Source: an uncultured Desulfuromonadales bacterium | GTDB lineage: Bacteria; Desulfobacterota; Desulfuromonadia; Geobacterales; Pseudopelobacteraceae | Direction: 5' to 3' | Assembly (NCBI GenBank): GCA_903868145.1 | Contig: CAIPTY010000100.1 | Span: 1-64,000, forward strand | Length of the DNA: 64,000 nt | In this document: one piece after another, positions 60,532 to 64,000 of the stretch | Layout of the letters: every line of letters begins with the position of its first letter | Position numbering within the stretch: the first letter of the stretch is position 1 | Notes under the pieces: model-generated | Told to the model about the DNA's origin: nothing | The model's input: the letters and a program-made list of their open reading frames with translations, nothing else | Databases searched by the model: none | Position numbers and translations under genes: made by a program

Positions 60532-61368
60532 CTAAACGAACAACCCAGACCGGGATGCAGGGATGATCCCGGATTTTTCCGCTCGCAGCAGCAGCTCTGA
60601 AACAGCCCGTTCCCCCTCTTCACCCAGCTCCGTCGAAAAGTCATTCACATACAGCGCAATGTGGGCGGCGCAGACATCCTCGCTGATCTCCTGGGCATGT
60701 TCACGGATGTAGTGGACGGCTTCAACAGGGTGGGTGCGGGCATATTCCACTCCGCTGCGCAATGCGCGTTCGATGGCTGAAATCGTATCCATCCTCAGCG
60801 AGCGGCGTGCCACAATCCCCCCCAACGGGATAGGCAGTCCTGTCTCAGCCTCCCACCACTCTCCCAGATCAACCAGCTTGTGCAGGCCGAAACCCTGGTA
60901 GGTGAAGCGCGATTCGTGGATGATCAGCCCGGCGTCGGCCTGTCCGGTCAGAACAGCATCCATGATCTCGTTAAAGGGCATGACCAGAAAGTTATCCAGG
61001 GTCGGATCGAAGAGCCGCAGCAGCAGCTTGGCCGTGGTGTAGCGCCCCGGCACGGCGATGGTTCTGCCCCGCAGGTCGGCGGGATCAATCCGGTCTGCAG
61101 CAACCAGCAATGGCCCGCAGCCCCGGCCCAACGCGCTGCCGGAGCGCAGCAGGGCATACTCGTCGCGGATATGTCCCAGAGCGTGATAGGATACCTTGCT
61201 GACATCAAGCTCGCCCTTCAGCGCCAATTGATTTAGAGTTTCAACGTCTTCCAGTCTCTCCTGATACCGGAGGCCGGCAGTATCCACCAAGCCATGCACC
61301 AGCGGATAGAACATGAACGTGTCGTTGGGGCAGGGGGAGAAACCTAAGGTCAATTCAGGGGACACCAT
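60532..61368 (-). CDS. mqnD: 1,4-dihydroxy-6-naphthoate synthase MqnD
   Basis: The 278-residue periplasmic-binding-protein-fold enzyme converts cyclic dehypoxanthinyl futalosine to 1,4-dihydroxy-6-naphthoate in menaquinone synthesis. The signature LTLGFSPCPNDTFMFYPLV (about 6-24) and catalytic His in GLIIHESRFTYQ (about 150) fit MqnD rather than MqnA. Its ATG and first five codons (MVSPEL) lie inside REP copy A, and its ribosome binding site AAAGGAT overlaps the RAYT stop, so the repeat forms its translation start. It is convergent with the efflux operon. Confidence 0.9.
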   Translation of the reverse strand: MVSPELTLGFSPCPNDTFMFYPLVHGLVDTAGLRYQERLEDVETLNQLALKGELDVSKVSYHALGHIRDEYALLRSGSALGRGCGPLLVAADRIDPADLRGRTIAVPGRYTTAKLLLRLFDPTLDNFLVMPFNEIMDAVLTGQADAGLIIHESRFTYQGFGLHKLVDLGEWWEAETGLPIPLGGIVARRSLRMDTISAIERALRSGVEYARTHPVEAVHYIREHAQEISEDVCAAHIALYVNDFSTELGEEGERAVSELLLRAEKSGIIPASRSGLFV

Positions 61369-61378
61369 ACTTATTTAT
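61354..61378 (-). repeat. REP-like sequence copy A (at mqnD start / RAYT stop)
   Basis: On the minus strand the copy reads AATAAGTATGGTGTCCCC then TGAATT. It shares 22 identical bases with copy B (62074-62098) in opposite orientation. It contains the mqnD start codon and the end of the RAYT gene. Confidence 0.8.
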
Positions 61379-62033
61379 CCTTTCCTTTTGGTCCCGGCTT
61401 CCTCTTTTTCAACGGGCGATCAAGAGCTGATTCAAGTCGCTCGACATAATCCACGGAACCTAGGGGGCGGCCGGTCCGCTCATGTTTGCGGATATTCTCG
61501 GACAGCACATTGTCAGGTGCCTCGGCAAGAAACAGTTGCCAGTCTCCGGCCATCTCCAGAAGCGGTGCAACGGTGACAAGACCATCATCCGCAGCCGCCA
61601 GATGGGCGCGGGCACTGCACCAGGGCCACTCCGATGCCTTTGTGACCAGTCCGGCACGTACCGGGTTCAACTCGACATAGCGGGCTGCTGCCAGTAGATA
61701 CGTCTCGTCCATCGGGAACGAGGCAAAACGCCCCTGCCAGAGATGGCCGCGCCAGTTTTCGCGGAAGTTGATCATGCGGCTGTAGCGGCGGTGCGTCTCG
61801 CCGATGGCCCGGTGTAGCGAGTCGTCGCGTTCCGGTACGACGACCAGGTGCACATGGTTTGGCATCAGGCAGTACGCCCACACGGCAACGCCGCATTTTC
61901 TGCACCACTCGTCCATTAGCGCGAGGTAGGCGCGGTAGTCGTCGTCGCTGAAAAAGGTCGGCATCCTGCGGTTGCCGCGCTGGGTAACGTGGTGCGGGAT
62001 TCCGGCTGCTATGACACGGGCAATACGGGGCAT
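61371..62033 (-). mobile_element. REP-associated tyrosine transposase (RAYT, Y1/TnpA_REP family)
   Basis: The 220-residue single-strand DNA nuclease has the HUH motif in LMPNHVHLVV (His60, His62) and the catalytic Tyr in HRRYSRMIN (Tyr84). RAYTs are domesticated relatives of IS200/IS605 transposases that act on REP sequences. The gene has inverted copies of a 25-base repeat at both ends (A and B) and no strong ribosome binding site. The C-terminus is Lys/Pro/Gly-rich. mqnD follows 2 bases after the stop. Confidence 0.9.
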
Positions 62034-62073
62034 GGGGAGAGAGTAGGATTGAGGCAGGTTAAAGTCAAGTGGT

Positions 62074-62098
62074 AATTAAGTATGGTGTCCCCTGAATT
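62074..62098 (+). repeat. REP-like sequence copy B
   Basis: AATTAAGTATGGTGTCCCC then TGAATT on the plus strand, upstream of the RAYT start. Inverted relative to copies A and C. Confidence 0.8.
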
Positions 62099-62209
62099 TT
62101 TCCTAAATTCTTCTGAGGTTATTGGTGCAGCACAAAAAGCTATAGACAAGCTTTAATTTATCGAGTATCTTCTACTTACAGGGTATTCTACAAGAAGTCG
62201 GGGCTAGTT

Positions 62210-62509
62210 ATGCGAGTATCAGAATTATTACATGCCATAAAATATATCAAAAGTGTTTACAAGGACATGACAGTTAGACAGTTAGAAGTATTATTGCATA
62301 TAGCCGATGAGGAGGGATTAACTCAGTTTGCTTATGCCAGAAAATGTAATGAGGCTGATACGGTGATACATCGTACAGTGAAAATGTACTCTGAATTAGG
62401 TTTCCTAGTTGAGAGGTCATCTTCTGATAACAGGGCTAAAGCATGGTTTATGTCTGAAAAAGGTAAAGAGTTTATAGGAGGGATATATGGGAAACTTACG
62501 CTTGAATAA
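62210..62509 (+). CDS. Small MarR-like winged-helix protein
   Basis: The 99-residue protein has a winged-helix fold (MTVRQLEVLLHIADEEGLTQFAYARKCNEADTVIHRTVKMYSELGFL) and a wing with RSSSDNRAKAWFMSEKGKEF, similar to MarR regulators without dimerisation helices. The region is clearly AT-richer than its surroundings. It lies between REP copies B and C, and its stop codon TAA (62507-62509) is formed at the edge of copy C. Acquired DNA is likely. Target unknown. Confidence 0.65.
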   Translation: MRVSELLHAIKYIKSVYKDMTVRQLEVLLHIADEEGLTQFAYARKCNEADTVIHRTVKMYSELGFLVERSSSDNRAKAWFMSEKGKEFIGGIYGKLTLE

Positions 62510-62532
62510 TTCCAGGGACACCGTACTTAATT
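62508..62532 (-). repeat. REP-like sequence copy C
   Basis: On the minus strand AATTAAGTACGGTGTCCC then TGGAATT, with 3 mismatches to copy B. It holds the stop codon of the HEPN gene and touches the stop codon of the winged-helix gene. Confidence 0.75.
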
Positions 62533-62910
62533 CTTCTCCAACATTTCCATAACTGTCTTATGCACCTCTTCCGCCAGTTTTAACGCCTGCCGAGCGACCT
62601 CTTTCTCCGCAAACTCAGCGGGATAACGGTACTCAACAGCATACGCGTTCAGTATAGCCAGAGTAGGGCGCAGCAGCTCAAACTCTGGATAGCAACCCTT
62701 CAAAAGATCAAGCAACAGCGAGAGATTGTGTGTTTTACCGAACGGTATTTCCGCCTCCTGCAACAATGCTTTCAGGCATTTTTCCGCGCACTGCTGGGAA
62801 TGAAAACAGGCTGCATCATAGTTGGGAGCAGTGCGGGCACGCAACTCGCGGCGAGCTGTCGCAAGATCCCCGTCAGCTTTTTTGATCCATTCAGTGGTGA
62901 GGGGCTGCAT
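62527..62910 (-). CDS. HEPN domain protein (partner of MNT)
   Basis: The 127-residue protein has the HEPN signature AACFHSQQCAEKCLKALLQE and a C-terminal EYRYPAEFAEKEVARQALKLAEEV. It overlaps the nucleotidyltransferase gene by 20 bases; such MNT-HEPN pairs act as toxin-antitoxin systems, in which the MNT partner AMPylates HEPN. The canonical RNase motif of HepT (RxxxxxH) is not obvious. The last codon and stop are provided by REP copy C. Confidence 0.8.
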   Translation of the reverse strand: MQPLTTEWIKKADGDLATARRELRARTAPNYDAACFHSQQCAEKCLKALLQEAEIPFGKTHNLSLLLDLLKGCYPEFELLRPTLAILNAYAVEYRYPAEFAEKEVARQALKLAEEVHKTVMEMLEKN

Positions 62911-63217
62911 ACAACTCTTTCCCGGTAGTCATGATTTCGCGCAGGAAAAAATCGTTCAGGGCCAGACGCTCCCTGATCTGGCGGGAGGAACGCACCACCA
63001 GCTCTACCGGCACGGTGGGCTTCAAGCGCTTGATGATATCGGCTGCAGTCCGTGCCCCGGAAACAACCTCAGGCATGACAACCAGCAGGTCAACATCCGA
63101 TTCCGCGCAGGCAGTGCCGCGAGCATAGGAGCCGAAGAGGATCACTTTTTCCGGCAAAAACTCCCTGGCTACATCATCAACAAAGGTTTGTATATCCGTA
63201 AAGGCCACCACCGACAT
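62891..63217 (-). CDS. MNT-type nucleotidyltransferase
   Basis: The ATG at 63217 follows TTAGGAG. The 108-residue protein has the minimal nucleotidyltransferase motif LFGSYARGTACAESDVDLLVVM, with catalytic Asp pair. It is likely the antitoxin of the HEPN protein encoded just downstream. Confidence 0.85.
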   Translation of the reverse strand: MSVVAFTDIQTFVDDVAREFLPEKVILFGSYARGTACAESDVDLLVVMPEVVSGARTAADIIKRLKPTVPVELVVRSSRQIRERLALNDFFLREIMTTGKELYAAPHH

Positions 63218-63346: not shown

Positions 63347-64000
63347 TCACCCGCCAAATCCTTCATTTTTCCTGTCTTCCTCCCAGTCGCTCCAGACTAC
63401 CTCATGGCTGAGCAGGTAGTGATCGACCGCCTGTCCGATGGTGGGAAAGAAGTTCTCGAGCCCGAGTTTTTTGAACAGGCCGTAGCGCTTGAGATGGTCC
63501 TTTACCGGTCCCTTCATCTGTGCGAAGCAGAGATCGACTCCAGCGTGCCGAAGTTCCTCTTCCAGTTCGGCCAGCACATCTGCGGCGGTGATGTCCACGT
63601 CGGTGACCGGTTCGGCGGCCACGACGATCCACTTGGTGGGTGTCGGCGCATCAGATACCGCCTTCAGGACGTGCTCGCGGAACATCTCGGCATTGGCGAA
63701 GAACAGCGGTGCATCCCAGCGGAACAGCACAAGTCCGGGGATCCTGCGTGCCTCGGGGTGACGGTTGATGTCATGGTAGCCTTTCATGCCGTCGACCCGC
63801 CCCAATACGGCGCAGTAAGGGCGCCAGGCCCGCCAGATGAATGCCAGGAGTGCAAACCCGACGGCGATGAAGATACCGTGAACAACTCCCAGCAGCGCAA
63901 CCCCCAGGAAGCAGACGACCGACAGGATAAACTCGCCACGCCTCAGGTAGTACAGTCGGCGGACCTCCACGACCTCCACCAGATTATAGCAGACCGAGAT
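63347..64000 (-). CDS. SulP family anion transporter, C-terminal part (truncated by window)
   Basis: The frame continues past the window end. The visible C-terminal 217 residues contain the last membrane spans (RRGEFILSVVCFLGVALLGVVHGIFIAVGFALLAFIW) and a STAS domain (LVLFRWDAPLFFANAEMFREHVLKAV; WIVVAAEPVTDVDITAADVLAELEEELRHAGVDL). SulP proteins carry sulfate, bicarbonate or chloride; the substrate cannot be told. The 5' part is outside the window. Confidence 0.88.
   Translation of the reverse strand: MSVCYNLVEVVEVRRLYYLRRGEFILSVVCFLGVALLGVVHGIFIAVGFALLAFIWRAWRPYCAVLGRVDGMKGYHDINRHPEARRIPGLVLFRWDAPLFFANAEMFREHVLKAVSDAPTPTKWIVVAAEPVTDVDITAADVLAELEEELRHAGVDLCFAQMKGPVKDHLKRYGLFKKLGLENFFPTIGQAVDHYLLSHEVVWSDWEEDRKNEGFGG

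Follow-up and report, generated by a model that had tools for sequence, protein, structure and literature searches.

A short repeat that occurs three times around a RAYT transposase gene is the terminal inverted repeat (TIR) of a 747-bp TIRYT element, and one of the three copies is a solo end of the same TIR family that terminates an MNT-HEPN unit. Comparison with related genomes supports the view that one end of the element, copy A, now supplies the start of mqnD, a menaquinone biosynthesis gene. Across the order, the 3' ends of toxin genes are the preferred location of solo TIRs, and these stray ends point to an undescribed way in which an element is duplicated and genes are carried along. 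The window, by which we mean the whole stretch of 64,000 nucleotides analysed here, is part of contig 100 of a draft assembly (G000; 103 contigs, 3.80 Mb in total), and the element is arranged in it as follows:

61352..62098, minus strand: whole TIRYT element (TIRtron), with units of the same plan in relatives
61352..61376, minus strand: copy A, the element's left TIR, holding the mqnD ATG and first codons
61371..62033, minus strand: RAYT/TIRYT gene, encoding a Y1 HUH transposase of 220 amino acids (PF01797, E=3.8e-14)
62040..62068, minus strand: promoter-like TTGACT with a weak -10 (TACTCT), just inside copy B, read from the sequence
62074..62098, plus strand: copy B, the element's right TIR

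The original prediction described the repeat as a 25-base REP-like sequence in three copies, two of them an inverted pair around the RAYT gene, and advised a search for more of them in the genome. All three copies are present, the register of A being shifted by 2 bp (61352-61376, not 61354-61378), and no match to the repeat arose in 100 shuffles of the window. Copies A and B do bracket the RAYT gene in opposite orientation and agree at 24 of 25 bases, and C agrees with B at 22 of 25; the motif GGGGACAC, which fits GGGGWSAS, is exact in A and B and one base off in C. Further copies were found in the source genome beyond the window, namely an inverted 56-bp dimer on contig 14, one copy on contig 62 and degenerate copies on contigs 17 and 77. 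The identification as a REP fell, since a single copy has neither a stable hairpin (MFE about 0) nor a GT[AG]G foot; in addition, the six copies found at three mismatches or fewer fall short of the high copy number of REPs.

The transposase has intact NHVH (PNHVHLV) and YVELNP motifs and a C-terminal extension, and it scores 74.1 bits against the NCBIfam model of the REP-associated tyrosine transposase (NF047646), below the cut-off of 80. TIR-RAYT-TIR units recur in related genomes at 747 bp (G005, G007, G046), 744 bp (G002, G114) and 743 bp (G045), and related elements likewise have TTGAC(A/T) inside the RAYT-upstream TIR. RAYT relatives in Omnitrophota, Riflebacteria and Rhodospirillales records are surrounded by ends built on this plan, and a search for RAYT on plasmids returned distant relatives only. 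Gene-less inverted dimers of 55-56 bp, which resemble REPINs, occur on contig 14 of the source genome and elsewhere. The source genome also encodes a second, different Y1 transposase (G000:C15:55245-55580, L001), which has no good TIR copy near it.

These features place the element among described systems. In Di Nocera et al. (2013, PMC3733652), a TIRYT or TIRtron is a RAYT-like Y1 gene between non-REP inverted repeats with the motif GGGGWSAS, whose ends occur also as singles, dimers and clusters; the window element shares the HUH motif with a catalytic tyrosine, the non-REP inverted flanks and the GGGGWSAS motif. Likewise, in Quentin et al. (2018, PMC6006769), TnpAY1 subclass 2.1 (Bertels group 1) carries NHVH and Y[IV]ELNP and an extra HTH-like domain at the C-terminus, has no nearby REPs, is frequent in delta-proteobacteria and is suspected by the authors to equal TIRYT, and the window transposase has NHVH and YVELNP. 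That subclass is described there as lacking typical IS features, whereas here there is a unit of constant anatomy, whose insertion into a gene pair is evident from gene order. Compared with the REP/RAYT system (REPtron) and REPINs (PMC2817692, PMC3116915), the Y1 transposases are relatives and the inverted dimers of about 56 bp are REPIN-like, but TIRYT ends are non-palindromic, lack a GTAG foot and exist in few copies.

The left end of the element runs into the following features:

60532..61368, minus strand: mqnD (menaquinone biosynthesis, VitK2_biosynth; PF02621, E=9.8e-86), starting within copy A
61378..61388, minus strand: AAAGGAAAGGA, resembling a Shine-Dalgarno sequence of mqnD and lying within the final RAYT codons, function putative
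63347..64000, continuing to 65128 of the contig, minus strand: SulP-like transporter with a STAS-like end, named from its protein rather than from a family search

The protein encoded by mqnD, the only full-length copy in the genome, begins with MVSPE followed by LTLGF, and copy A provides the ATG (61368-61366) and the first five codons. None of the 29 homologues compared from the genus and family starts with MVSPE; mqnD of relatives starts with MNRTPLTLGF, MTTPTLTLGF, MKNPLTLGF and others, and homology to them begins at about LTLGF, exactly at the edge of copy A. An aminopeptidase gene (M29-like, from reading the protein) precedes mqnD in G001 and G003, which belong to the same genus, and also in several further genera, and its stop overlaps the mqnD start. 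On the source contig this aminopeptidase gene is found at 65157-66332, 3.8 kb upstream of mqnD, and SulP, MNT, HEPN, copy C, a winged-helix ORF and the TIRYT element lie between the two. Given the ancestral overlap in relatives and the distance here, the pair was split and the native mqnD start lost. The 747-bp TIRYT element lies in this formerly overlapping gene pair, and the outward reading of its end (AAGT-ATG-GTG-TCC-CCT-GAA-TT) became the new mqnD start, with the Shine-Dalgarno-like sequence in the 3' codons of RAYT. The claims that the start codon lies in the repeat and that insertion reshaped this gene end have stood. For the ribosome binding site, which the original prediction put in the RAYT stop (61373-61371), the candidate is a purine-rich stretch in the last RAYT codons (61388-61378). 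The spacing from AGGA to ATG is 9 nt. The mqnD ATG follows the RAYT stop by 2 nt, and a strict scan of the minus strand from 61200 to 62650 gave no sigma-70-like promoter, so that dependence of mqnD transcription on the RAYT promoter is plausible.

Downstream of this aminopeptidase gene, G005 carries a TIR, MNT-HepT-TIR, MNT-HEPN-TIR and a TIRYT element, and its mqnD is elsewhere in the genome with an ordinary start. Capture of a start codon as a general habit of TIRs was considered and rejected: outward ORFs run from TIR ATGs at few other ends, none of them convincing, and mqnD is the only convincing case. At L213 (G005:C14, 4242-4800), the sequence behind the RAYT element of G005 has a macro-domain-like ORF whose frame is open from an ATG at the TIR edge, though the more natural-looking start is a later ATG.

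On the other side of the element, copy C lies among the following features:

62099..62507, no strand: low-GC interval between B and C, called foreign, 36.4% GC against 55.4% for the window
62210..62509, plus strand: winged-helix-like ORF, its stop overlapping the outer edge of copy C; near-orphan in the order
62508..62532, minus strand: copy C, solo TIR with its inner side facing HEPN
62527..62910, minus strand: HEPN toxin gene (PF05168, E=2.1e-28)
62891..63217, minus strand: MNT nucleotidyltransferase (antitoxin), partner of HEPN (PF01909, E=2.4e-13; MntA antitoxin model below cut-off)

Here the original prediction was right that the HEPN gene takes its last codon and its stop (EKN-stop) from copy C and that this copy touches the stop of the winged-helix ORF, and the interval that holds this ORF is indeed low in GC. 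The TIR-made HEPN end occurs also in G005 and, less exactly, in others, and the B-C interval has the lowest GC of any 409-bp stretch in the window. The winged-helix-like ORF matches a transcriptional regulator family (phrog_9665, E=6.9e-6) and has no Pfam match; homologues are present in three of 141 genomes, one being its own and two having weak matches, and a search of viral contigs found nothing. The reading of B and C around this ORF as an element of its own has to be given up, because their outer sides face each other and they are not two ends of one element. HEPN-MNT was likewise considered as a two-ended TIR element and discarded: upstream of MNT only GAATTAAGT near 63286 matches, and the sequence then diverges.

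TIR copies were collected from 141 genomes of the order, counting as a match any site within two mismatches of a degenerate consensus and using the reversed pattern as control. A TIR match is present in 88 of the 141 genomes and the reversed control gave essentially none; most of the copies examined are solo. Toxin families make up 17 of 45 neighbours on the inner side of TIRs and two of 40 on the outer side (Fisher p=0.0002, for ORFs selected by hand and with an effective number smaller than these counts, because some loci are related to one another). The inner-side toxins are HEPN (5), PIN (5), HepT (3), Fic (3) and ParE (1), and those on the outer side are one HEPN and one weak DarT. No toxin capping was seen in Omnitrophota genomes with related elements.

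One HepT subfamily shows the same. Its homologues with at least 79% identity along the greater part of the sequence occur at 13 loci, spread over two families and many genera. In 12 of these loci the gene ends in codons derived from the TIR, either GGAATTAAGTAA or a sequence one base away from it, and the TIR is in register in most of them; such an end was found in none of 17 more distant or partial homologues. The 12 HepT-TIR units have at least nine left and at least ten right contexts. When units are compared in pairs, similarity stops on the right at the outer edge of the TIR in most pairs and on the left, again in most, at a limit between -262 and -366. Within the family, HepT is about as similar between genomes as mqnD, and spread faster than that of core genes was not seen within the family; therefore, vertical descent contributes, and part of the HepT spread may be vertical.

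Several individual loci are worth recording. In four genomes, HepT-TIR units (L220, L222, L223, L226) follow the same upstream gene, read as LL-diaminopimelate aminotransferase, with differing right flanks, and a TIR-ended PIN gene (L160) occupies the same neighbourhood, a possible hot spot. The source genome holds a decayed HepT-TIR unit with internal stops (L228, G000:C77). Series of TIRs in the same direction, spaced by about 120-1600 bp, occur at L175 (G037:C1), L200 (G003:C78) and L207 (G007:C3), the last with repeated PIN and HepT toxin genes. In addition, a 57-60-bp unit found in many genera consists of AACAGCAAAGGCGGCCGATTGGCCGCCTTTTGAA followed by a TIR, with unrelated sequence before the unit; in it the end is joined to a terminator-like hairpin (as DNA, -13 to -14 kcal/mol). 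The unit lies on the TIR inner side at L158, L167-L169, L175, L178-L180, L200, L207, L209, L211 and others.

A second regularity concerns breakpoints. Beside more than 30 TIRs there are tandem truncated TIR copies, which we call ladders. In 60 of 70 exact matches of at least 10 nt, the outer limit falls 0-8 nt beyond the TIR, 8 nt being the furthest distance compared, and a little local flank is shared, while the inner limits range from -5 to -85. Similar truncated copies stand beside RAYT in Omnitrophota. One fixed end combined with a variable other end is found both in the ladders and at the HepT unit boundaries, and the same rule of a fixed outer and a variable inner breakpoint describes both.

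We infer from these sequence patterns that nicking takes place at a fixed outer site and is followed by inward copying of variable length. The transposase would nick a few nucleotides outside the end, on the inward-reading strand (AATTCCGGGGACAC), and keep the 5' end of the element on its tyrosine, while the free 3' OH would be extended inward by strand displacement. Rejoining after such an extension would leave ladders, and transfer to a new site would create one-ended units with the adjacent gene, such as toxin-antitoxin cassettes. If the nick lay outside the end, copying ran inward and rejoining came early, the outer breakpoints would be fixed and the inner ones variable, as observed. Other HUH enzymes offer partial parallels. 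IS200/IS605 elements (IS608, ISDra2) use a Y1 HUH transposase and 5'-phosphotyrosine intermediates, and their unlike ends are recognised on one strand; the TIRYT enzyme is likewise a Y1 HUH transposase, but each end of its element is the inverted repeat of the other. IS91/ISCR and Helitrons are one-ended rolling-circle HUH elements with Y2 or Rep/helicase enzymes. They share with the pattern proposed here one fixed end, a variable other end and the capture of adjacent genes, although their enzymes are not of the Y1 type.

The strongest competing explanation is that TIRs reached the 3' ends of toxin-antitoxin genes in repeated, separate insertions, which are tolerated or preferred there, so that the genes are not cargo and the mqnD start is an accident of one insertion. 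Solo TIRs do lie a few to tens of nucleotides past the stops of different genes, there is no TIR at close relatives of the window's HEPN gene (L116, L117, L119), and HepT and mqnD show equal identity within the family, all as independent insertion would have it. It would not, however, give the same junction codon in 12 of 13 HepT loci in many contexts, and the asymmetry between inner and outer sides would additionally need an orientation preference; we regard it as rather unlikely. Replication slippage or unequal recombination at short repeats, with no role for the transposase, might account for the ladders and tandem ends, which, like slippage products, are arranged in tandem and have local flank in common. 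Slippage does not explain why one breakpoint keeps to 0-8 nt outside the TIR and the other varies over 80 nt, and it seems improbable as the source of these structures.

Two further readings have little to recommend them. Remodelling of gene ends by a REP (repetitive extragenic palindrome) family would fit the RAYT-class gene, the low-copy dispersed repeats and the REPIN-like inverted dimers, but the lack of hairpin and foot in single copies, the few copies per genome and the match to the published TIRYT motif (PMC3733652) make it very improbable. That the arrays are integron cassettes, with the TIR or its hairpin variant as attC site, is scarcely credible. Integrases score over cut-off in eight of 12 genomes tested (including G000:C26) and same-direction arrays of ends do exist; however, three of the other four genomes (G005, G030 and G038) contain TIR-toxin units although no integrase in them passes the cut-off, the integrases over cut-off in G000, G007 and G037 lie on contigs other than those of the arrays, and the repeat forms the terminus of a Y1 transposase element. 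By eye, no attC sites were apparent at the unit boundaries.

The best explanation as a whole thus combines TIRYT insertion, capture of the mqnD start, capping of toxin genes and one-ended nicking with inward copying, and we consider it probable by a modest measure. Counting against it are that HepT is no more similar than mqnD, that slippage could make ladders, that the genome is a draft of 103 contigs, that mqnD is the sole convincing start capture, that the Omnitrophota show no toxin capping, and that the toxin counts include related loci and hand-selected ORFs. A further step, that TIRYT ends act as a one-ended mobilisation signal by which a Y1 transposase in trans moves adjacent toxin-antitoxin genes, builds arrays and leaves ladders from aborted rounds, all without integrase or attC, is quite possible, though we stop short of calling it probable. 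In the open-access literature on RAYT with toxin-antitoxin genes and inverted repeats, we found no report of toxin capping by ends, and a major survey of toxin-antitoxin systems mentions neither transposases nor inverted repeats. The available portions of PMC3733652 and PMC6006769 contain no toxin capping and no such breakpoint rule; toxin 3' ends, the fixed outer and variable inner breakpoint and a captured start codon set the present case apart from the TIRYT account in the available portion of PMC3733652.

In summary, the window is a good instance of start- and stop-codon capture by a TIRtron, and it provides a clear case in which the end of a mobile element turned into the start codon of a core metabolic gene. 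To our knowledge, how repeats are spread by RAYT-class transposases is unsettled, and movement by the TIRYT branch has hardly been examined. The ends described here offer a concrete signature, in which breakpoints coincide 0-8 nt outside the end, inward copying varies in length and solo ends cap toxin genes. The order-wide association of toxins with TIRs is more surprising than the window case itself. If the one-ended reading is true, a minimal Y1 enzyme can build mobile toxin-antitoxin arrays, a capacity so far credited to integrons and larger transposons.
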